A DNA stretch of 41,250 bases from an uncultured Cryomorphaceae bacterium. Lineage in GTDB: Bacteria > Bacteroidota > Bacteroidia > Flavobacteriales > Schleiferiaceae. The DNA is taken from positions 1 through 41,250 of the forward strand of contig CACMMX010000015.1 of NCBI GenBank assembly GCA_902614915.1, read 5' to 3'. Numbering within the stretch: the stretch's first letter is position 1; every line of letters starts with the position of its first letter. The translations under genes were made by a program, and so were the position numbers. Positions 5,321 to 37,972 of this stretch are shown in pieces. Below the pieces are notes generated by a model. That model was not told the DNA's origin, searched no databases, and saw only the letters and a list, made by a program, of their open reading frames with translations.

Positions 5321-8300
5321 TTAATATCTAATAATTATTGGTTTCTGAACCACACCTTGATCAGAAGCAATCTCAATGAGATATACCCCAGAAGCAAAAT
5401 TGGTGCTTAAGTCGTAAGTCCGATTAAACACATTAGACGATGGGTTAAATTCATCTTTAAGTACTTCTTGTCCTAAATAATTAATTATTCGAATAGTAAT
5501 TTCCGACTCTGAGGTCAATTCACCATTAATGACAATTAAGCCTTGTGTTGGGTTTGGATAAATCATCAATGCTACTATACCTCCATCATGCTTAAGGCCA
5601 ATACCATTTATCTGGACGTTGAAAGTAGTGGACGCTGTATCACAATCACTATACAAAGTCAATGTAACCGTATAATTACCGTTGGCATTGTAAGTGTGAT
5701 TTTCGGAATTTCCCGATCCACTACTTGAATTCCCGTCTCCAAATTCAATATTGAATCCTGTATAACTAGCACCTGTCCAATTAAAGCTTACGCTAGCATT
5801 AGTTCCAGTAACCGAGTCGACATTAAATTGAGTGCTTCCAATAACAATATTGAAACATGAATCTGTATTAAATTGTGTGGAAGCTGTAAAAGATGTATCC
5901 CCGGGAGCACAGACTTCTTTTACAAAAAAGTCGTAAGTAGTTCCTTGTTTTAGGCCTGTTAACGATGCCGCTGGTGTTATTGAAGTGCCATTGAACATAT
6001 TCGTACCTCCTTGTTCTCTATAATCGTAGATAAAAGATCCGGAACCACCAGTCCAAGTTAATGCAGCTGAATAGGATGTCACATTGTTTAATGTAATATT
6101 GATTGGCATTGGACATGAGACAGGAACACAATTAGCCATTAATGTAGCTTGAGTACCTACTGCAAAATTTCCTGTAGTTACTGATGTTGTTTGTGTACCA
6201 GAGGCATTTGATAAAGTGTAACTCACCTCAGAAGGAAATGAACCGGCAAGTGAATTTAACACGGTAACCTGCGTTCCACTACAAATCTGAAAATCAACGA
6301 TTGAAGAATCCCCGTTGGCAAATGTGAATGTTGGTCCCTGCTGTCCATTTAAAAGTAAACTAACCTGCGCACCATCCCAACCATCTCCGAAGGAATCGTA
6401 CATACTCATAGTCCAATTACATAATTCCGATGTATCACAGCGATTAGTACAAAAGGTAATTGGCCCTACAGTATCGCTAACTCCATAGGTCCCACAATCA
6501 GCTATCATAAGTATATCATAACATGAATTAGAGGACAAACCATTAATGGTAAAATTATTTACAGTTGTTGAACCTGAAAAGCTATTTGAAACACCTGTCG
6601 ATTGGGCAAATCCAACTGGGCCCCATTCATAGTTAAAAGTACCCGTATTTCCATTGGTATTGAAACTGAATGTTGCGTCATTTTTACCTGCAATAAAGGA
6701 CAAAGAATGAGGAGTTGGACATGGAGGGGGTGCGCCCACATAAATATCGTCAATTGCCATGTCTCCAGTGAGAGAACCACCATAAGAACCGCCAAAACGA
6801 ATATATGTAGTTGCTGACGTATTTCCAGTTAAGTCTACCACGGCGTTTAAGTAGGGATTCGATTGATTGGACTGTTGCTGACCACTGAGTGAATATAGCG
6901 TGGACCAATTCACATTATCAGAGGAAACTTCTACTGTTAAATCTCCCATAGCTGAACCGTGCATATGATAAGCGAATTCTACCACAGCATTAGGTATTGT
7001 ATTCAAATCAAGAACGGGTAAATAAGCATAATCAACGTTATTTAATGGAGTCGCCGAAGTTTCCAAGTACAAGTAATAATCTCCGGAATTTCCAGTCGTC
7101 GGTCCTGTACCTAATGATCCAGTTCCCATTCCGTCCCACGTCCATCCAAAACCAGACAAATCTGTTTTGATGCCGTTCCAACACACAGGAATTACTCCGG
7201 CCCAAGAATCAAAATCTTCATTAAATGGTGGTATGCTAGCAGCACAAGCAGTGGTTAACATCAACGGACCGTTTGAAGGGCTCATAAATCCATTCGAACA
7301 CATTTGATAGAAATACACATCATAGGTTGTACTCGGAAGCAAACCGGTTAACCAATGAGGAGAAGAAGTCGTAGAATCAATTACTCCAGTACTTTGTGAG
7401 AAGTTTGGCGTAAATCCAGTCGGACCATATTCTATGTAAGTCATTACACCAGTAGAAGAGAAGTAAACTTCAGCTGAATCCGTAGTTACTGCACCAACAT
7501 TAGTAGAGGTTGGAGGAATACAAAGAGGTGCATTAGTAACGGTCACCTCATCAATGTAAACACCATTGAATGTTGACGCAGTTGTTGATGCTATGACTAA
7601 ATGTGAATCACTCATGTTATAACCTGATGCTAAATCAATATAAACTGTATACTTGTTCCATGTCGCACCATTGGGGACACTAAGAGTATCTATGATATTT
7701 AAGTTTGTTAGATCAGAAGGATTGCCTACCGTACCCACAATGACATCTGTCCCACCCGAAAAGCCATCATTAGCCATGTAGAAGTCAAGCTGTTTATTCC
7801 CGCTATCCAGTCCCATGATTGCAGGACTAATCAATGCCTCCATGGCCGAATCACCAGAATTGTACAAGAAGTACATTTGATTACCTACATAAGGAGCTAT
7901 ATTAAATGTTGATCCAGCAATATAACCATAACCTTGGGCACCAGAATTCTCCCTGTAATACCAACAAGAAGGTGCATTAGTGTTATTAAATCCTCCTGTT
8001 GTATCTGTATCAAAACTCTCGTAAAGAGGCGTGGTAAATGCTAAACATGGTGTTAGAATTGTGAATGGTCCAGCAAAATTACTGGTGCCGCTTGAATCTG
8101 CAGTACAATCATTCTGTATATAAAAATCGTAAGCAGTATTTGGACTTAGGTTGTAAACCGTAACTGTTGTGTCATTTACAGACATAGCTGTACCATTTCC
8201 TGTTCCTTGAATAAAGCCAGATAGTCCGTATTCTACGACAAAATTAGTATCACTGGATCTCCATGTTAAAGTGGCTGAAGAATCCGTAGCAGTCAAGCTC

Positions 8301-9454
8301 GAAAACAAAGGCGCTGGACAATCTGTATTGCAGAAAGAAGTAAACTGGGCCATCTGTGTACCTAGAGCTGTTGCACTGTTTGGTAGGTATGATGCTATGT
8401 TTGTCCCACCAGAGGTTATATTAAGTCCAATCTCGCTGGCCCAAGAACCTGCTTGGCTAACTTCAACAGAAAAAGTCTCTCCAGAACATAAAAAAACCGT
8501 TGTAGTATCTGAATACCCTGTAGTAAAATTGGACCCTAGAGTGTATTCAACACCCCCAGAAGAATTTAAAATTTGTATCTCTGCACCGTTCCAACCATCA
8601 CCGAAAGAATCAGTTAATTCAATGTCATGAGGGCATTTATCAATCAATCCACATTGTAAAGTTTTAAAATTGACCGGCCCACGGACTATGCTTATGGAAC
8701 TATCCAGGCACATCTTATAAACATAAACGTCATAATCGGTGGCTGTATCTAAACCTGTTAACCAATAAGGATGGGTTCCTGGGATTACTAAATTCACTGT
8801 GGATGAAGAGAAGCTCGGGGTGAAACCTGCAGGGCCATATTCAAGATACACTTCAATCCCAGTTGTATCATAAGTTACAAGAGCTGAATCAATACCAATA
8901 TTACTTACAGAGAGAGCAGTTGGATAACATGATGACGCAGATAAAACCTCTATACTATAATCTTCTACAGCTCCCCATAAAAAGGTGTTACAGGGTGATA
9001 TGCTTGCTGCTGATCCTTGCTCCTCTTGCATTACTCGAAGTCTAGTTGAGCCAATATTAGCTCCAGTAGGAACCGTAAAATTAAACGTTTGAGTAACCGT
9101 CGGCGTACCAGAATAAGTACCCAGTTGTTCGCCTACATCATCAAAGTCACCGTCTGAATTAAAATCAATCCAAGCAGCAATTGCCCCACTATAAGCTCCA
9201 CCACATGTACCCATTTCTATATCAATGGAATAAGAAGAATCAGGATAAACATCAGCTGAATAAATACTTGTAAAATCCTGTACACCAGTTGTACCACATG
9301 AATTACTTTGATTATAAATCGTGCTTGTGGTACCCACCAATGAAACTAGAGTTATTTCTGAATCATCTGTATCGGAAGGACCAGCGTTACAATAACTTTG
9401 TGCCTTGGTTTGTACAGTTACAACAACTAATAGCAGTGGGAGTAATTTTTTCAT
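5321..9454 (-). CDS. Large secreted multidomain protein with T9SS type A sorting domain
   Basis: A 1377-residue protein exported by a signal peptide (about residues 1-19, ending TKAQS) and then by the type IX system. Domains in order, from visible motifs: GEVED domain (about 70-170, WIDFNSDGDFDD and VEDYSIEV); Fn3-like (175-265); a DSFGDGW domain (275-375); Fn3-like (380-465); MAM/choice-of-anchor J-like (470-640); Fn3-like (645-735); a second anchor J-like domain (740-905); Fn3-like (910-1000); a second DSFGDGW domain (1005-1110); Fn3-like (1115-1195); PKD-like (1200-1283, FGDGN and YTVTLT); T9SS CTD (1295-1377, YPNPTQG start). It is probably cell-surface or released, perhaps adhesive or glycan-binding. 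No catalytic domain is seen. It stands alone, with over 250 bases free on each side. Confidence 0.9.
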   Translation of the reverse strand: MKKLLPLLLVVVTVQTKAQSYCNAGPSDTDDSEITLVSLVGTTSTIYNQSNSCGTTGVQDFTSIYSADVYPDSSYSIDIEMGTCGGAYSGAIAAWIDFNSDGDFDDVGEQLGTYSGTPTVTQTFNFTVPTGANIGSTRLRVMQEEQGSAASISPCNTFLWGAVEDYSIEVLSASSCYPTALSVSNIGIDSALVTYDTTGIEVYLEYGPAGFTPSFSSSTVNLVIPGTHPYWLTGLDTATDYDVYVYKMCLDSSISIVRGPVNFKTLQCGLIDKCPHDIELTDSFGDGWNGAEIQILNSSGGVEYTLGSNFTTGYSDTTTVFLCSGETFSVEVSQAGSWASEIGLNITSGGTNIASYLPNSATALGTQMAQFTSFCNTDCPAPLFSSLTATDSSATLTWRSSDTNFVVEYGLSGFIQGTGNGTAMSVNDTTVTVYNLSPNTAYDFYIQNDCTADSSGTSNFAGPFTILTPCLAFTTPLYESFDTDTTGGFNNTNAPSCWYYRENSGAQGYGYIAGSTFNIAPYVGNQMYFLYNSGDSAMEALISPAIMGLDSGNKQLDFYMANDGFSGGTDVIVGTVGNPSDLTNLNIIDTLSVPNGATWNKYTVYIDLASGYNMSDSHLVIASTTASTFNGVYIDEVTVTNAPLCIPPTSTNVGAVTTDSAEVYFSSTGVMTYIEYGPTGFTPNFSQSTGVIDSTTSSPHWLTGLLPSTTYDVYFYQMCSNGFMSPSNGPLMLTTACAASIPPFNEDFDSWAGVIPVCWNGIKTDLSGFGWTWDGMGTGSLGTGPTTGNSGDYYLYLETSATPLNNVDYAYLPVLDLNTIPNAVVEFAYHMHGSAMGDLTVEVSSDNVNWSTLYSLSGQQQSNQSNPYLNAVVDLTGNTSATTYIRFGGSYGGSLTGDMAIDDIYVGAPPPCPTPHSLSFIAGKNDATFSFNTNGNTGTFNYEWGPVGFAQSTGVSNSFSGSTTVNNFTINGLSSNSCYDILMIADCGTYGVSDTVGPITFCTNRCDTSELCNWTMSMYDSFGDGWDGAQVSLLLNGQQGPTFTFANGDSSIVDFQICSGTQVTVLNSLAGSFPSEVSYTLSNASGTQTTSVTTGNFAVGTQATLMANCVPVSCPMPINITLNNVTSYSAALTWTGGSGSFIYDYREQGGTNMFNGTSITPAASLTGLKQGTTYDFFVKEVCAPGDTSFTASTQFNTDSCFNIVIGSTQFNVDSVTGTNASVSFNWTGASYTGFNIEFGDGNSSSGSGNSENHTYNANGNYTVTLTLYSDCDTASTTFNVQINGIGLKHDGGIVALMIYPNPTQGLIVINGELTSESEITIRIINYLGQEVLKDEFNPSSNVFNRTYDLSTNFASGVYLIEIASDQGVVQKPIIIRY

Positions 9455-15808: not shown

Positions 15809-17953
15809 ATGAAAAAATCATTGATTTTAACTACTGCTCTTTTATTGTCCTTGGTAGGATTTTCTCAATCTAAATTGACCCTTAAAGATGCTGTACTAGG
15901 CGGAAGACAATATATTCCTCAAGGCATTTTAATGGCAAAATGGATTCCTGGTACCGACCTCTATTCTCATGTTATTGACAATTATCAAACCACGGTAATT
16001 ATTGATGCTAATACTGGCAATGAATATGGAAGAATCACATCAGGTCAAATAAATGATGCACTAGCTAAGGGTAATTATGAAATTAAAGTCCGCGGAACAT
16101 GGATGTTAGAATGGGTTGATGAAAACCTTGTTCATTTCGTTGAAGAAGGGACTCTTTATACCTATAATAGAAGATTGGAGGTTATTGAAAAGAAATATAC
16201 TATAGTTGAAGAAAATAGTAATATTACTATTAGTAATAACCTCAATGCTGCTTACACCGTTGGAAACAATGTGTATATCAATTGGAGTGAGAATGGAGCT
16301 ATTAAACAGGTTACCAATCATAAAAACCCCAATATTGTCAGTGGTCAAGCTATTGCAAGAAGTGAGTTTGGTATCACAGAAGGCTTGTTTTGGAATCCTG
16401 AAGGTACTGCTGTTGCTTTTTACGAAAAAGATGAAAGTGCGGTAACCAATTATCCTCTATTAGACATTGAATCAACACCGGGAACGCTGCGTGAGATTAA
16501 ATATCCAATGGCTGGCCAAGGTTCAGAATATGCACGAATTGGTGTTTTTCGCAAAGGTCAATCAAAACCCGTATATCTAGAGACTGACGGAGAAGAATAC
16601 GATCAATACCTGACCAATTTGAGTTGGTCGCCAGACGGGAAAACTATTCTATTGGCTATAATCAATCGTTCACAAAACAACTATGACGTTGTGGCTTTCA
16701 ATGCTAAAAATGGAAAGCGAGGTAAAACCTTAATTAGTGTGAATAATGATAAATGGGCAGAACCAGAATTCCCCGCATTTTGGATAAGCAATAAAGAGTT
16801 TATATGGATGAGCGAAATGGACTCCTTTATGAATCTATACCTCTACAATACTAAAGGGGAAATGATACGTAAGTTGACAGAAAATGCCTTCGTAGCAACA
16901 GAAATTCTAGGGCTTGATAAAACCGGTCGTATTCTATTTATGGCAACAGGAGAAGATGCACGTGAATCACATTTGTTCAGCGTAAACCTCAAAGGCAAAC
17001 AACAACAATTAACCACAGAAAGCGCATACCATAATCCAATTATACAAAAAGGTGGCACATACTTCATAGATAACTACAGTAGTTTGGATATCCCAACTAA
17101 GTCGGTCTTAAAGAATACAATGGGCAAATCGTTACGCATCTTATCTCAAGCAGATAATCCTTTTGAAGGCTCGAACATTCGCAAACCTGAAATGAATCAA
17201 ATTATAGGTCCCGATGGAAGTATTTTATATACGCGTACATACAAGCCGTTTGATTTTGACCCGAGTAAAAAGTATCCTGTACTTATTTATGTATACGGCG
17301 GACCTCATGCACAAATGGTCACTAACCGTTGGAATGGAGGCGGACCACTATGGATGAATGAATTTGCCAATCGCGGGTACATTGTATTCACGCTTGACAA
17401 CAGAGGCTCTGCACATCGTGGAACTGATTTTGAGCAGCAAATTCACCGTCAGTTAGGAACAGTAGAAATAGAAGACCAAATGGCAGGGGTAGATTATCTC
17501 AAGTCACTTCCTTACGTCGATGGAGATCGTATGGCCGTGCACGGATGGAGCTACGGTGGATTCATGACTATCTCACTTATGCTTCGCCAGCCGGGCACCT
17601 TTAAAGCGGGAGTTGCCGGCGGTCCTGTGACCGATTGGAAATACTATGAAATTATGTACGGTGAGCGCTACATGGACCGTCCTGAGGAGAACGAGGACGG
17701 CTATGCAAAAAACCGTTTGCACAACTACGTAAGCAACCTCCAAGGCGACCTCCTACTCATTCATGGCACCGTAGATGATGTGGTAGTGATGCAACACAAC
17801 CTCAGTCTCGTGAAATCCTTCATCGACGCAGGCGTACAAATAGATTTCTTTCCTTATCCCATGCACCCGCACAATGTGCGTGGTAAGGATAGACTACACC
17901 TTATGACCAAAGTTTTAAATTATATCGTGGATGCATTGACGTCCAGAAAATAA
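15809..17953 (+). CDS. S9 family prolyl oligopeptidase / dipeptidyl-peptidase IV-like
   Basis: A 714-residue exported peptidase with a signal peptide (about 1-19, LLSLVGFSQ). Residues about 40-440 form a beta-propeller (DPPIV_N); the C-terminal alpha/beta-hydrolase domain carries the catalytic triad: Ser581 in HGWSYGGFM, Asp656 in HGTVDDVV and His688 in HPHNVRG. Family members cut Xaa-Pro (or related) dipeptides from peptide N-termini in the periplasm. The length matches bacterial DPP IV. It lies 6 bases after the ABC ATPase gene. A second dipeptidyl-peptidase (S46 family) is encoded convergently just beyond, so the two may be complementary peptide-degrading enzymes. Confidence 0.92.
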   Translation: MKKSLILTTALLLSLVGFSQSKLTLKDAVLGGRQYIPQGILMAKWIPGTDLYSHVIDNYQTTVIIDANTGNEYGRITSGQINDALAKGNYEIKVRGTWMLEWVDENLVHFVEEGTLYTYNRRLEVIEKKYTIVEENSNITISNNLNAAYTVGNNVYINWSENGAIKQVTNHKNPNIVSGQAIARSEFGITEGLFWNPEGTAVAFYEKDESAVTNYPLLDIESTPGTLREIKYPMAGQGSEYARIGVFRKGQSKPVYLETDGEEYDQYLTNLSWSPDGKTILLAIINRSQNNYDVVAFNAKNGKRGKTLISVNNDKWAEPEFPAFWISNKEFIWMSEMDSFMNLYLYNTKGEMIRKLTENAFVATEILGLDKTGRILFMATGEDARESHLFSVNLKGKQQQLTTESAYHNPIIQKGGTYFIDNYSSLDIPTKSVLKNTMGKSLRILSQADNPFEGSNIRKPEMNQIIGPDGSILYTRTYKPFDFDPSKKYPVLIYVYGGPHAQMVTNRWNGGGPLWMNEFANRGYIVFTLDNRGSAHRGTDFEQQIHRQLGTVEIEDQMAGVDYLKSLPYVDGDRMAVHGWSYGGFMTISLMLRQPGTFKAGVAGGPVTDWKYYEIMYGERYMDRPEENEDGYAKNRLHNYVSNLQGDLLLIHGTVDDVVVMQHNLSLVKSFIDAGVQIDFFPYPMHPHNVRGKDRLHLMTKVLNYIVDALTSRK

Positions 17954-18134: not shown

Positions 18135-21100
18135 TTAAAATCCCCAGCCCATTGTAAATTGAAGGTTTGGAAGTCTTCTAGGCAATACATCAATTAATCT
18201 ATACGTATTAACAATCGTTTGGTCGTTAATCGTTCGGGTCGTTACTTTCCAACCCCCAGTTTCAATTAAACCAATATCAACACCTAATCTTAATCCTTTC
18301 ACAGGCCTATGACCAAGGCCAACACCGGTAAACATCCATGGACCACCCCCATCGCATATATATTTAACACCAGTCGCCTGATTTGTAATCTTACCTCGTA
18401 AAGAACCCACACCATAGGCAGCAACTACTCTAAAGGCATCAAAATTTTTGATTGGACGATAAGTAGCCCCAACGGCAGCCCAACTTCCATCTTCACAAAA
18501 CTGTCCTGTAAAATCTCCTAATACTGTTCTACTTAAAGCAACGTCATATCTAGTTACATCAACACCTCTACTTCTTGAATAAAATGCAGATAATGTCAAC
18601 TGAGGATTGACTTGCTGATCATATGATATCCCAAAAGCAGGAATAGGGCCGGAAGTATTGATACTTACTGCCCTTTCTGAATACTCACGTTCTTTTTTCC
18701 AAAAAGCAAAATCATTAGTTTCAAAAGTTCTACTTTTCGGTTCTGACTTATCATCTTCAATAATTGTCATTTCATCAACAAGATGTTTAGCTCCTGCGTA
18801 TTTATCAATCAAAAACAAGATGTAACGAATATCAACTGATATTGTACGTTGTAATTCATCTTCGAAAAAGATATCACCGGACATTGCCTCCCAGTTACCG
18901 TCAAAAGCAGTCCCTATGAGATGTCCATCTCCATTAATTACTGGTGACCCAGAATTGCCCCCAGTAATGTCATTATTAGAAATAAAATTAACTACTAATT
19001 TGCCGTTTTCATCTGCATAAGGTCCATAATCATTTGATGCCCATAATTGCTTCAACCGACTAGGAACAATAAACTCTTCATCATTTGGATTTTCCTTTTG
19101 CATTACACCATCAAGAGTCGTAATGTAATTATAACGTTTACCATCCTGAGGTTCATAAGAACCTACTAGGCCCCACGACATTCTTGGGGTCGAATTTGCG
19201 TCAGGGTAAAATATTTTTTCAGGAAATGCTTTACGAAGTCCATCTGCGTACAAACGATATCCTTTAGACATTTTTTCAGAAACATCTTTATCGCCTTCAC
19301 GTCTAGAATAATACGTCATGATAAAGTTTGAAGCCAGCTTAGCACCAAGATCTTCGGAGAGTGCGTCTTCATCCATATCCTCTAACCATGCCTTTAAATT
19401 ATCTAGAGAGGCAAAAATTGATTTGTTGTAAATATCATCAACCATCGCATCAATAACTGCGTCAAAATCAATTCCGCTCTTATTTACTACCAGAGAATTT
19501 GCATTCATTTTTTGAGAGTCGATTGCTTCGTCAGTATCACCAAAATCATCTCTTAAAACAGTGAAATCCGTGCGGCGATTTATTTGATTCGCTACTTTTT
19601 GATCTTCCTTACTAAGATTCAAAATAAATTCTTCAGTTAAAGATTCGCCCTGCTCGAAAAGAGAACTTCCTAAACCATTGTAATTCACAGGAACCTTAAA
19701 TGGTTGGCTTTCTCCCATACCTGAGGCTGTTAATCGCTCCTCCTCAATGCCTTTATTAATTAGATAGTCTACACAACTTTGAGCACGTTTTTGAGATAAC
19801 AATTCATTATTCTCATCCGAACCTCGATAATCAGTATGTGATCTTAAACTTATTGTTATGTTTGGATTCTTTTTAAGAATTGAAAACAGCGTGTCCAAAG
19901 CGGTTTTGCTATCATTTCTTAGGGAACTCCTCGCAACGTCAAAATAAATATTTGGAATATTAATAACCATTCCTTTAGAAGGCTGAATACTACTTAAGTT
20001 ATTCATATCAACAACAGTCATAGCATTACGCATATCCATGAAAATGGATGGGAGTTGATCAGTGGGAATATTTTTTACCCACATCTTCCAAAGTGCGGCT
20101 GCCAAGTCTTTATCCACGTCCGATTGGAATTCAGAGAAGTGACTTTCAGCATAATCCAAAATATCTTGTTTATCTAAATCCAAATCTTCTGATGTAGGTA
20201 ACGCCGACAACATTCTATTTAATCGGAAGGCAAATAATGGGAGTGAAGCACCTCTTATGCCTGCCTCCATAAGATATACATCGCTCTTAACCGTCATATC
20301 TGTAGCAGAATAAGCCTCATCTAGCAAATTCAAAGCTTCGGCATAATCAGCCAAACTATCATGGGATTTTGCCCAAGCTAAATACTTTGCCTCTATACCT
20401 TCTTTCTTTTGCTTGACTTGATTTTTCTTAAGCTGTTCAGTTTGACCAATATAATACTTCCAATAATTTGCAGTGGACGCATAGTTCGATGCGAGTGCAA
20501 TTCTAACTGATTCATCAGAATCCATAGCCCTCTTCATTATGGCTAATTTTTCATCACGAATCTCAACGACCGTTGGATTATATAAGTTAATTGCTTGCTC
20601 TATTCCTGTAGAAGTTAAAAATCTATCTGTTGAACCTGGAAAGCCAAAAACCATTGAAAAATCACCCTCTTTAACACCGCTTAAACTAATCGGTAAATGA
20701 TGTCTTGGTTTTAAAGGTATATTTCCATCGCTTATAGCAGATGGATCACCATTTTCATCTGCATAAATTCTAAACAAGGAAAAATCACCTGTATGACGAG
20801 GCCACATCCAGTTGTCAGTATCGCCCCCAAATTTGCCTATACTACTCGGAGGAGCTCCTACAAGACGTACATCGCTATAAGTATTAAAAACGAATAAGTA
20901 AAACTCATTATTGTGAAAAAAGCTTCGGACATACGCGTTGTGTTTGGTACCAGAAGTAGCTTCTTTTGCCAAAGCATCACCAATTTCTTTTGCCTTTCTC
21001 GCTCGTTCAGCTTCCGTCATATCATCCGATAACTCCGCTAATATCTCATCAGTAACATCCTCCATTCTAACTAAAATTGCCGCTGTTAGACCTGGGTTGA

Positions 21101-21452
21101 ATCGCTCCTCATCAGGAGTCATAGCCCAAAATCCATCAGAGAGGTAATCATTTTCAACCGTTGAGTGAGAGCGAATTGCGTCATAGCCACAGTGATGATT
21201 TGTGAGCATTAAGCCCTTATCAGATATGATTTCACCCGTACAAAAACCGCCAAGTGAAACTATAGCATCTTTGATTGAAGCATTATTAATATCATATAAT
21301 TCTTCCGCTGTTAGATTTAAACCGTTTGATTGCATTTCTGCAATATTCAATCTTTTGATTAACATCGGCAGCCACATACCCTCATGTGCTGAGGATATTG
21401 AACTACTTAACAACAAAGACGCCGTAATAATCCCGATAATAAATTTTTTCAT
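18135..21452 (-). CDS. S46 family dipeptidyl-peptidase with inserted OmpA-like domain and C-terminal barrel-like extension
   Basis: A 1105-residue protein, against about 700-720 for the family. Signal peptide 1-22, then the S46 start HEGMWLPM. Catalytic triad as in DPP7/DPP11: His87 (TNHHCGY), Asp223 (HTGDFSLFRIY) and Ser834 (GGNSGSP). The Asp-Ser distance of 611 is nearly 190 more than in P. gingivalis DPP7 (Asp225-Ser648 as I recall it). The excess is explained by an OmpA-like domain at about 495-630: NIYFDVARSSL, RSHTDYRGSDEN, LLSQKRAQ, GMGESQP, INRRTDF. After the S46 end (about 898) comes a 200-residue beta-rich region ending in a C-terminal Phe (LPNLQFTMGWGF), like an outer-membrane barrel end, and similar to the protein at 37385-37972. 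Likely a periplasmic exopeptidase tethered to the envelope; tethering is inference. Its P1 preference cannot be told. It follows sucB by 74 bases. Confidence 0.92.
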   Translation of the reverse strand: MKKFIIGIITASLLLSSSISSAHEGMWLPMLIKRLNIAEMQSNGLNLTAEELYDINNASIKDAIVSLGGFCTGEIISDKGLMLTNHHCGYDAIRSHSTVENDYLSDGFWAMTPDEERFNPGLTAAILVRMEDVTDEILAELSDDMTEAERARKAKEIGDALAKEATSGTKHNAYVRSFFHNNEFYLFVFNTYSDVRLVGAPPSSIGKFGGDTDNWMWPRHTGDFSLFRIYADENGDPSAISDGNIPLKPRHHLPISLSGVKEGDFSMVFGFPGSTDRFLTSTGIEQAINLYNPTVVEIRDEKLAIMKRAMDSDESVRIALASNYASTANYWKYYIGQTEQLKKNQVKQKKEGIEAKYLAWAKSHDSLADYAEALNLLDEAYSATDMTVKSDVYLMEAGIRGASLPLFAFRLNRMLSALPTSEDLDLDKQDILDYAESHFSEFQSDVDKDLAAALWKMWVKNIPTDQLPSIFMDMRNAMTVVDMNNLSSIQPSKGMVINIPNIYFDVARSSLRNDSKTALDTLFSILKKNPNITISLRSHTDYRGSDENNELLSQKRAQSCVDYLINKGIEEERLTASGMGESQPFKVPVNYNGLGSSLFEQGESLTEEFILNLSKEDQKVANQINRRTDFTVLRDDFGDTDEAIDSQKMNANSLVVNKSGIDFDAVIDAMVDDIYNKSIFASLDNLKAWLEDMDEDALSEDLGAKLASNFIMTYYSRREGDKDVSEKMSKGYRLYADGLRKAFPEKIFYPDANSTPRMSWGLVGSYEPQDGKRYNYITTLDGVMQKENPNDEEFIVPSRLKQLWASNDYGPYADENGKLVVNFISNNDITGGNSGSPVINGDGHLIGTAFDGNWEAMSGDIFFEDELQRTISVDIRYILFLIDKYAGAKHLVDEMTIIEDDKSEPKSRTFETNDFAFWKKEREYSERAVSINTSGPIPAFGISYDQQVNPQLTLSAFYSRSRGVDVTRYDVALSRTVLGDFTGQFCEDGSWAAVGATYRPIKNFDAFRVVAAYGVGSLRGKITNQATGVKYICDGGGPWMFTGVGLGHRPVKGLRLGVDIGLIETGGWKVTTRTINDQTIVNTYRLIDVLPRRLPNLQFTMGWGF

Positions 21453-33230: not shown

Positions 33231-34190
33231 TTAAAGGGTTTTTAAAAACTCTTCCAACTCAATAAGTTCTCGATTATTGAGTTTCAATTCCTCTATTCCG
33301 TCGCTAGTATAATCGAGTCCAGAACCACCTAAATTGTATTGATTTAATACGTCAGAAAGAGAAGTTAAGCTGCCATTATGCATATATGGGGCTGTAGATT
33401 TAACATGCCTTAAAGACGGCACTTTAAAAGTAAAAAAATCGGATGAGTCCAATGTTAATTGGCCCCGACCATAATCGTTGATACTGGTTGCAGTACCGTT
33501 ATTGTAAAACCCAAAATTTGTGAATAAGGGTCCGCTATGACAATGGCTGCAATTAGCCTTACCAAAGAAAAGAGCAAGCCCACTCTTCGCTTCTCTAGAT
33601 ATGGCATTTTCATTACCCGCCAAATAAGCATCTATGGGAGCGTTATTTGAAATCAAGGTTCTTTCAAATTGGGCAATTGCCCTAGTAATGGTATATGGCG
33701 TCGCAGTGTCATTAAATGCATTTCGGAATTCAGTCTGATAAGAAGAGTCCGAATTTAATCGCTTTGCTAAAAGTAGCATATTGAAAGCCATTTCATTGTG
33801 TTCGTGAACAGGAACAAGAACTTGCATTTCCAAAGAAGGGACACCACCTTCTCTCATGTAATACGGATGGTATCCAATATTCCAAAGTGACGGAGAGTTT
33901 CGTTTACCTAGTCTGTTTTCAATACCTAGGCTTACAGGAAGATTATCTGCCATGGCGTACTCCTCTTTATGACAAGAAGAACAACTGATAGAGCTATCTA
34001 AGCTGAGAATAGGGTCATGAAAGAGACGTTTGCCAAGAGCGATTTTTTTTCCGTTCGGCTGATTATCCAAAGGATATTCCATCTTTGGCCATTGAGTCAA
34101 TTCAGTGTTAATTAATAACGAAGGCTCTTTTTCGCATGAAAAAAAAATAAGTACTGCTAACCAATTAAAATGGTGAAAAATATCTTTCAT
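33231..34190 (-). CDS. Di-haem cytochrome c peroxidase family protein (MauG/MbnH-like)
   Basis: A 319-residue protein with a lipoprotein signal (FFSC, acceptor Cys19). Two c-type haem motifs, CSSCH (Cys70, Cys73, His74) and CSHCH (Cys214, Cys217, His218), about 144 residues apart, define the bacterial di-haem peroxidase/MauG family. GKRLFHDPILS, the RNSPSLWN block and APYMHNGSL are family blocks. The family includes true H2O2-reducing peroxidases and protein-modifying enzymes such as MauG and MbnH. Its immediate upstream neighbour (135 bases) encodes an MbnP-like protein; MbnH modifies a Trp of MbnP, so this is the likely partner. The exact sixth ligand of the second haem cannot be assigned from sequence alone. 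Confidence 0.9.
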   Translation of the reverse strand: MKDIFHHFNWLAVLIFFSCEKEPSLLINTELTQWPKMEYPLDNQPNGKKIALGKRLFHDPILSLDSSISCSSCHKEEYAMADNLPVSLGIENRLGKRNSPSLWNIGYHPYYMREGGVPSLEMQVLVPVHEHNEMAFNMLLLAKRLNSDSSYQTEFRNAFNDTATPYTITRAIAQFERTLISNNAPIDAYLAGNENAISREAKSGLALFFGKANCSHCHSGPLFTNFGFYNNGTATSINDYGRGQLTLDSSDFFTFKVPSLRHVKSTAPYMHNGSLTSLSDVLNQYNLGGSGLDYTSDGIEELKLNNRELIELEEFLKTL

Positions 34191-34325
34191 TAGAAATCAG
34201 TTCTCTATCCATTAGCGTTATGCGGAAAGTATCTCAAATCGCAGTCATCGCATGTTGGCGAGAAATTTTTTAGAACAACCCATAATTTCAGTGTAAACGA
34301 GGAAAATGGTCGTGTAAAATTTCAT

Positions 34326-35270
34326 TTATCGAACCAATATTTTTGATGTTCTAATAAACCCATTCAGAGAAACTACACATAAATAAGTTCCGGAATCTTT
34401 TAAAAATATGGATTGTAAATTTTTCAATTTAGACTTGTGTACAACTTCTCCTAAGGCGTTGTAAATAACCAAATCTGCATTATCCATGCCTGTGAAAAAT
34501 ACTTCTCCATTTGAGGGGTTAGGATGAATCTTTAAATCAGTCCAGTCTTTTTCATTAAAAGCTAAAGCGGTAATCCCTTCTGCACTTTGGAATACATGAT
34601 TATTTAAATTCTTCAAGGCTTCGAGGGCATCACCCGTTTCTCCGTGAGAAATTGTACCAGAAGCAACTGAAATGTTTTTAGTTAAATTACTGTAGTCTGC
34701 CTCAATATCTATAACCAATGTATCGTTACCTGATGTTGTACCTCTAGTATTAATAGTTTGCATAGCATAATTACTATTGCCTAGACCATGGAGTTGAAAA
34801 GTTTGATTAAATGACGCCCCACCAAGGCCTTCTGCACAGACAAACCTGTAGCCAGCAGCCCAGCCCCAATGCATTGACGGAAACTTTGGTGCTAGTGGAT
34901 GTGAGATTGGGTATACAGATGGGTCTAAATTATTTACGTCAGGGCCTACACCAATAGCAAACCGAACGGCAGAAACGGAGTCCAAATTTAAAGATCCAAG
35001 ATATACTTTGGTATTTTCTTCACTTAAGGCATCAATTAACAGAACATTGGTATAAAATAAGGTATCGCTTTGATTATAAATAATTTCGATATCATCCACA
35101 TAGTATTGAAGTCGTGAAAATTTAAACTGATTACCTAAATTATTGACCCCAACTAATGTATTCGTGAGTGCCTGCCCATCCATTTTATGATGAAAATTTA
35201 ATACTAATTCTTTAGGCTGTGCACTAAGCGCAAAAGTGCAAAGAATTAAAAAGAATACTATTTTTTTCAT
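34326..35270 (-). CDS. MbnP-like protein with T9SS type A sorting domain
   Basis: A 314-residue exported protein with a signal peptide (about 1-17, ending LSAQ). Residues about 20-225 match the MbnP-like domain, with LVLNFHHKMDG, FKFSRLQYYVDDIEI, SMHWGWAAGYRFV (Trp135, Trp137) and FQLHGLG (His161). MbnP binds copper; in Methylosinus a Trp is converted to kynurenine by MbnH, and the conserved MHWGW region is the plausible area. Residues about 245-314 are a T9SS type A domain (IHPNPSNGEVFFT, NALGEVV, ending TSKILVR). So the protein probably goes to the cell surface. It is upstream of and on the same strand as the di-haem gene. Confidence 0.85.
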   Translation of the reverse strand: MKKIVFFLILCTFALSAQPKELVLNFHHKMDGQALTNTLVGVNNLGNQFKFSRLQYYVDDIEIIYNQSDTLFYTNVLLIDALSEENTKVYLGSLNLDSVSAVRFAIGVGPDVNNLDPSVYPISHPLAPKFPSMHWGWAAGYRFVCAEGLGGASFNQTFQLHGLGNSNYAMQTINTRGTTSGNDTLVIDIEADYSNLTKNISVASGTISHGETGDALEALKNLNNHVFQSAEGITALAFNEKDWTDLKIHPNPSNGEVFFTGMDNADLVIYNALGEVVHKSKLKNLQSIFLKDSGTYLCVVSLNGFIRTSKILVR

Positions 35271-37384: not shown

Positions 37385-37972
37385 CTAAAATCCGTAAGCG
37401 ACTCCAAATTGAATATTTGGAAGGACCTTCGCAAAGAAAGGGTGACTAAGTACTTCCTCGGGAGAGGCTGAAGAGCATCCACCCTGAAGACCGGTCAATG
37501 CAGGACCTGAGCCATATAAGAGCCCCGCGTCAAAGCCATAGGTTAAACCTTTTTTTGGCCTTAAGCCAAATCCAATGCCCAAATAAGTTACAGGATTTTC
37601 CGTGTAATTGACATCATAGTTGGACCCTTGGTCACCTACTAAGCTATTAAAAATACTTCCTACGGCAATACCGGTATTTACTCTAAACCAATCGGCAGAT
37701 TCAAAAGGACGGTGATTAATAAAAAAGCCCATCCAATCGCTACTAGATGTAACGTCAAATGTTTCTCCTCCTATTTCAGGACTAAACGGTGAGGATGATT
37801 CTGGTAGTGTTCCGACACCAATATTAAAACTAGTTTTTTCACTTACGACATAACCTAGTTGTAAAGAGCCACCAAAAGGGCTTAATCCTAATCCTACAGA
37901 GTATTGAGCAATCTCTTGCGCATAAGAAGTTGATATTCCAAAGCCAAATAAAAACAATAGTATTTTCTTCAT
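37385..37972 (-). CDS. Small outer-membrane barrel-like protein, homologous to the S46 peptidase C-terminal extension
   Basis: A 195-residue protein with a signal peptide (about 1-18, GISTSYAQE). The rest looks like a small barrel, with many Gly-rich strands and a terminal Phe (LPNIQFGVAYGF). It aligns by eye with the last 180 residues of the S46 peptidase (18135-21452): DWFRVNTGIAVGSI matches DAFRVVAAYGVGSL; GIGFGLRPKKGLTYGFDAGL matches GVGLGHRPVKGLRLGVDIGL; and the ends VLPNIQFGVAYGF and RLPNLQFTMGWGF agree. No enzyme function is visible. It is the first gene to the right of the tRNA-His fragment. Confidence 0.75.
   Translation of the reverse strand: MKKILLFLFGFGISTSYAQEIAQYSVGLGLSPFGGSLQLGYVVSEKTSFNIGVGTLPESSSPFSPEIGGETFDVTSSSDWMGFFINHRPFESADWFRVNTGIAVGSIFNSLVGDQGSNYDVNYTENPVTYLGIGFGLRPKKGLTYGFDAGLLYGSGPALTGLQGGCSSASPEEVLSHPFFAKVLPNIQFGVAYGF

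Follow-up and report, generated by a model that had tools for sequence, protein, structure and literature searches.

An S46 dipeptidyl-peptidase gene of an uncultured Cryomorphaceae bacterium appears to hold a peptidoglycan-binding domain of the OmpA type between its catalytic Asp and Ser, which raises the question of whether such a gene is real and, if so, what kind of protein it encodes. The gene lies in a window of 41,250 nucleotides (the whole stretch of DNA analyzed), within a source assembly of 1.65 Mb in 54 contigs that is 86% complete. At 18135..21452 the minus strand contains, as the earlier note had claimed, a single unbroken ORF of 1105 amino acids with no internal stop. The S46 gene occupies its conserved genomic position, flanked on one side by genes for SCO1, two ABC ATPases, and an S9 peptidase and on the other by SucB, SucA, and others, in an order conserved in relatives. 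Among named genomes, the relatives nearest to the enzyme (76–80% in the best segment) are recorded as Cryomorphaceae or Schleiferiaceae bacterium, and their titles, for example, MunidaNeritic and FRAM18, suggest that the habitat is probably marine.

The enzyme part shows the S46 architecture, a double beta-barrel catalytic domain with a helical cap between (model and structural alignment to 5JXF and 7DKB). All coordinates of parts of this gene refer to the minus strand. After an apparent signal peptide (residues 1–22, 21387..21452; read from the sequence, not by a predictor), the first part of the catalytic domain covers residues 23–275 (20628..21386; limits by analogy to SmDPP7) and carries His87 (21192–21194) and Asp223 (20784–20786). 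The cap is made of residues 276–478 (20019..20627) and 667–750 (19203..19454), both delimited by alignment and model, and is followed by the second catalytic part, residues 751–905 (18738..19202; alignment), with Ser834 (18951–18953) and the S1 residue Gly852 (18897–18899). The three residues that had been picked out as conserved, His87, Asp223, and Ser834, are invariant across 52 sequences. The substrate-N-terminus-binding residues N214, W215, N329, and D851 are also kept; the loop 209–214, next to the active-site N214 and W215, has a pLDDT below 50 in the model. The Asp–Ser spacing is indeed 611, an excess of 178 over the 433 reported for SmDPP7 (triad 84/222/655; PMC8041751) where about 190 over DPP7 had been estimated; relative to the genus orthologues, the insertion amounts to 188 residues.

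The S1 position, 18 residues past the catalytic Ser, is occupied by Gly in this protein, as in DPP7 and in the genus orthologues (L005–L022), whereas DPP11 has Arg, which is also found at this position in the second S46 protein of the same genome. DPP11 specificity, considered as the closest solved structures are those of DPP11, was rejected because of Gly852. The score against the NCBIfam Dpp7 equivalog (NF053519), 699.3 bits, is below the cut-off of 1200; the enzyme is, on its sequence, a DPP7-like S46 protein outside this equivalog, with a predicted dipeptidyl-peptidase activity. The fused protein has in common with DPP7, DPP11, and DAP BII the fold, the triad, the N-terminus-binding residues, and an apparent signal peptide, but adds to them a 188-residue insertion in the cap and a 194-residue C-terminal domain. 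The S46 chains matched are 698–731 residues long and the matches skip both extra segments; in the structural comparison (VIA; 50 entries shown, in rows spanning residues 21–899), no OmpA or barrel chain appeared, which says nothing against either domain.

The insertion was delimited by alignment with 18 orthologue sequences of the genus (14 from genus genomes and four from named records, including some identical pairs), which breaks after residue 478 and resumes at residue 667, leaving residues 479–666 (19455..20018) in a gap, except that the aligner placed three insert residues, 544–546, opposite other residues. In the model, the insertion sits between the cap helices 469–478 and 663–677, and its proposed location in the helical domain thus holds. 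The OmpA-like pattern noticed earlier at residues 495–630 belongs to the OmpA family PF00691 (63.2 bits, E 3e-17, cut-off 27.2) and, more precisely, to a PorE-type OmpA domain, which is placed at residues 495–640 (19533..19970) on Pfam, NCBIfam, the PDB match, and the alignment taken together. The NCBIfam PorE model (NF052230) reached 157 bits at residues 495–634, through its C-terminal part alone and short of the cut-off of 600, and the closest solved relative is the C-terminal domain of PorE, PDB 6TOP (E 3.3e-28 by sequence). In 6TOP, the side chains of Asp576, Asn584, and Arg591 are described as binding the DAP stem peptide (PMC7192894). Their equivalents in the insert are D541 (19830–19832), N549 (19806–19808), and R556 (19785–19787), so that not only the peptidoglycan-binding Asp and Arg named in the earlier note but also the Asn are kept. 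In the structural check that the note had proposed for the OmpA fold, parts of the domain are modeled at pLDDT 70–88 and 6TOP is the best non-S46 Foldseek match (E 1.7e-4), but the superposition is poor (TMt 0.45, rmsd 12.6), in a model that was built without any OmpA homologue in its alignment.

PorE is a multi-domain lipoprotein of the T9SS (TPR, propeller, CRD), whereas the fused protein has the OmpA domain alone, with its three side-chain ligands for peptidoglycan, inside an enzyme. Judged from these matches, it is a protein with a PorE-type domain rather than a PorE, and nothing supports a direct T9SS role, which was rejected because the OmpA domain is the sole part that the two proteins share. 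Elsewhere, the genome encodes a PorE-like protein of its own (L121, G000 contig 31), in which LysM follows the OmpA domain, in two stretches by Pfam; for Porphyromonas gingivalis PorE, the OmpA domain is described as the last one (PMC7192894). The insert is 60% identical to the PorE of its own genome and 60–64% identical to nine other PorE domains, whereas these nine are 77–99% identical among themselves and the genome's own PorE is 92% identical to that of the genus genome G012. Against seven of the ten PorE domains, pN is 0.26–0.29 and pS 0.75–0.87. Such a divergence fits either an old insertion that diverged under constraint or a diverged donor. In the OmpA-domain tree, the insert is placed close to L101/L102 (support 0.89), at the end of a very long branch, because of which the donor cannot be named.

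The OmpA insertion is only one half of the architecture, and the earlier picture, although right about it, missed a second acquired domain at residues 912–1105 (18138..18719), identified by sequence matches and ending in WGF. Residues 913–1105 match the mature part of stand-alone proteins of the genus, which are ~200–220 amino acids long and of which the closest six are 41–48% identical; matches of this family were found in eight of 25 genus genomes, the source genome included. The match starts directly after the signal peptide of the relatives, at QDNFSFWKK/NDFAFWKK, in an alignment that left out L116 through the C-terminal pattern, though L116 also ends in WGF. Within the order sample, the C-terminal domain found matches in 20 of 395 genomes (weak barrel matches in G083, G187, and G298 being taken at face value), and it is fused only in the source genome among the matches listed, the others lying in frames of 196–283 residues, bar one contig-end fragment. 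A stand-alone distant relative, 195 amino acids long, 25–29% identical, and without a Pfam family, is also encoded in the window itself (37385–37972, minus strand).

The unmodified orthologues end differently: all 18 sequences (L005–L022) have a Lys/Arg-rich tail, for example, GKKKRKKRRK, which the fused protein lacks, having the C-terminal domain instead. This tail is possibly an electrostatic anchor that binds an anionic surface, and its exchange for a probable barrel would point to an importance, for this enzyme, of being kept at the envelope.

We next consider how widespread this architecture is. Complete orthologues were found in 19 of the 24 other genomes of the genus and, because both S46 halves lie in one frame of 725–730 residues, these 19 are without insert or barrel. 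No S46 orthologue was found in G014, G018, G019, and G022, and in G012, the nearest relative, the contig ends within the gene, at residue 414, with no further part found. This gene (L135, at the end of G012 contig 30) stops shortly before the insertion site; strain variation there is a possible cause. A query spanning both junctions was matched end to end in the source genome only, that is, in one of 25 genus genomes. The same holds for one of 395 genomes in the order sample and one of 395 in the class sample (774 distinct genomes, 16 being shared), each time the source genome, with no second copy among the matches listed; in most of these genomes five candidates at most were scored, so that a diverged or differently placed insertion could escape. 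None of 73 S46 ORFs from named genomes matched the insert or the barrel at E 10; these came from 80 loci kept out of 590 named-genome relatives, seven of the 80 having given no S46 ORF by motifs, and contig ends truncate several of the ORFs used (e.g., L034, L092). Viral contigs yielded no relatives of insert or barrel. That the author of the earlier note knew of no described S46 enzyme of this shape agrees with the open-licence papers of PubMed Central, where no S46 peptidase, dipeptidyl-peptidase, or other peptidase fusion of this kind appeared among the papers listed. The domains are known, then, but the architecture was found nowhere else, in a single genome, and its function is one that we infer.

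The reading that we favor, as moderately probable, is that of a real gene in which a DPP7-type periplasmic S46 dipeptidyl-peptidase was turned into a doubly anchored envelope protein, attached both to the outer membrane and to the wall. By sequence, a PorE-related OmpA domain was inserted into a loop of the S46 helical cap, and the mature part of a small stand-alone protein was fused after the catalytic domain, replacing the Lys/Arg-rich tail. The C-terminal part would fold as an 8-stranded outer-membrane barrel whose two ends face the periplasm, the OmpA domain would bind wall stem peptides of the DAP type, and the enzyme would sit between membrane and wall, near the entry of oligopeptides, cutting dipeptides from their N-termini. 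Proteins of the OmpA/OprF type likewise combine a barrel with an OmpA domain. The fused protein would resemble them in uniting, within a single chain, an OmpA domain that binds peptidoglycan and what is probably an 8-stranded barrel, but the order is reversed and the OmpA domain is embedded in an exopeptidase. Bridging of the outer membrane and the wall by a single polypeptide is also the presumed mode of action of OmpA, Pal, and PorE; the bridge proposed here differs in carrying an enzyme. The DPPs of P. gingivalis are considered to be periplasmic and associated with the cell, for DPP7 on the basis of its signal sequence and vesicle proteomics (PMC8048996), and their substrates are described as imported oligopeptides (PMC8048996; PMC10653852). 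If the wall-binding domain and the barrel are what they seem, the enzyme would be fixed at the point where peptides arrive: a natural domain insertion and a terminal fusion would have made a diffusible, nutrient-scavenging enzyme into one held between outer membrane and wall. With this one protein it could be tested whether the S46 cap can accommodate a bulky domain or the enzyme is regulated by it, and whether a bacterium with a small genome makes better use of peptides when a dipeptidyl-peptidase is located at its outer membrane; the unmodified orthologues, which occupy the same locus, offer natural controls.

For the earlier suggestion of an exopeptidase that may be held by the wall, the sequence gives good support (apparent signal peptide, S46 site, and PorE-type OmpA domain with its ligands), and the C-terminal domain suggests a further anchor in the outer membrane. 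The C-terminal part might be a soluble or peripheral beta domain, the periplasmic enzyme being held by peptidoglycan only, which we regard as doubtful. Such a reading would agree with the finding that the curated families of Pfam and NCBIfam, libraries that do not cover all barrels, gave no significant barrel match and that solved sequences in the PDB gave no significant match. It would also agree with a two-sequence model of low confidence (mean pLDDT 39.7), with a full-length model in which residues 921–1105 have a pLDDT below 50 and a shape that is not barrel-like, and with a strand amphipathicity that is just modest, the observed number being reached by 9 of 500 column shuffles at a threshold of 3.0 and by 39 of 500 at 2.5. 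On the other hand, the two-sequence model is all-beta, and the 50 of its 417 Foldseek matches that are listed are membrane barrels (best E 0.008). Moreover, the stand-alone relatives have apparent signal peptides (again read from the sequence, not by a predictor) and ends that recur: WGF or YGF closes each of the ten stand-alone loci L110–L119, and the 13 rows of the stand-alone alignment (A6) all have an aromatic-x-Phe C-terminus (WGF, YGF, or YCF), seven of them having been picked by this pattern, which each of those seven loci yielded once. The C-terminal domain is, by inference, probably an 8-stranded outer-membrane barrel, if a putative one.

Anchoring by the OmpA domain could also do more than hold the enzyme, in that binding of stem peptides by a domain carried on the moving cap might alter its activity. 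The S46 helical domain is reported to cover the bound dipeptide and to shift between open and closed states (PMC8041751), the insertion is located in this very domain, and the cap segment that follows it is the most diverged one (57% identity to orthologues versus 82% among orthologues). But the linkers around the OmpA domain, ~16 and ~26 residues long, are largely modeled at pLDDT below 50, and because of this a loose coupling of the domain to the cap is suggested; furthermore, all four S46 segments, and not the cap alone, are less like the orthologues than the orthologues are like each other. Nothing beyond the position of the insertion speaks for the response of activity that the earlier note had envisaged, and gating by wall binding is possible but unsupported; as an account of this protein we think it unlikely. 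Quite improbable is its extension to a wall-sensing exopeptidase, in which the peptidoglycan receptor in the moving cap, together with the outer-membrane anchor, would let the state of the wall or the membrane–wall distance set the opening of the active site.

Alternatively, the domains might have been joined by chance in a protein en route to loss of function. The architecture is present in one genome, and the S46 part has evolved fast: G012 is the nearest of the compared relatives by SucB, at a distance of 0.076, whereas over S46 residues 24–412 its distance is 0.193, the distances between G012 and L019 being 0.095 and 0.093, respectively. The S46 part thus changed about twice as fast as expected in the source lineage, which fits a changed role or a relaxed constraint. 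The source genome groups with G012 in the SucB tree, but the two S46 trees disagree, FastTree placing the protein outside the genus sequences, with the outgroups, and IQ-TREE beside G012/L019 (support 71); because of this disagreement, the sequences also allow that the S46 gene may have been replaced by a diverged homologue. Divergence before the insertion is not separable from divergence after it because synonymous sites are saturated. Against a decaying, non-adaptive fusion, there is no frameshift or stop in 1105 codons; the catalytic, N-terminus-binding, and peptidoglycan-binding residues are all kept; pN is well below pS in the S46 part and the insert and lower than pS in the barrel (0.34–0.38 vs. 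0.69–0.73); and this is the only DPP7-type S46 gene found in the 86%-complete genome. We hold chance joining to be quite improbable too.

It is very unlikely, in our estimate, that unrelated reads were joined by the assembly, even though the latter is fragmented into 54 contigs and incomplete and the G012 orthologue is cut off at residue 414 by the end of its contig. The insert is flanked in frame by both S46 halves at a conserved locus, the three junctions are all in frame, one of them at a mature-protein boundary, and GC ranges from 0.35 to 0.39 across the gene parts, with 0.38 for the window. Near-identical DNA for the insert or the barrel was not found in the 25 genus genomes: for the insert, the top-scoring match is 69% over 298 bases and the top identity 84% over 67 bases, the PorE genes matching at 67–73% apart from this one 67-base stretch and the PorE gene of the same genome at 68% over 211 bases; for the barrel, the best is 77% over 74 bases. 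An artefact arising from other copies within the genome or the genus was rejected on these matches, and the lack of a near-identical source, together with the conservation of key residues, makes a simple assembly chimera less likely. As for an autotransporter-like export of the peptidase to the cell surface by the C-terminal barrel, the order of N-terminal passenger and C-terminal barrel is that of autotransporters, but ~190 residues suit a narrow 8-stranded barrel and not a 12-stranded translocator, and a peptidoglycan-binding domain would be idle outside the cell, so that this is scarcely credible.

Some other genes of the window may be mentioned. The S9 peptidase next to the S46 gene is DPP4/DPP5-like (15809–17953, plus strand) and stands tail to tail with it, an arrangement kept in relatives. 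A di-haem cytochrome c peroxidase/MauG-like gene (33231–35270, minus strand) adjoins a gene of the MbnP family that has a weak T9SS sorting tail, and a protein of 1377 amino acids (5321–9454, minus strand) combines GEVED, fn3, MAM, and PKD domains with a T9SS sorting tail.
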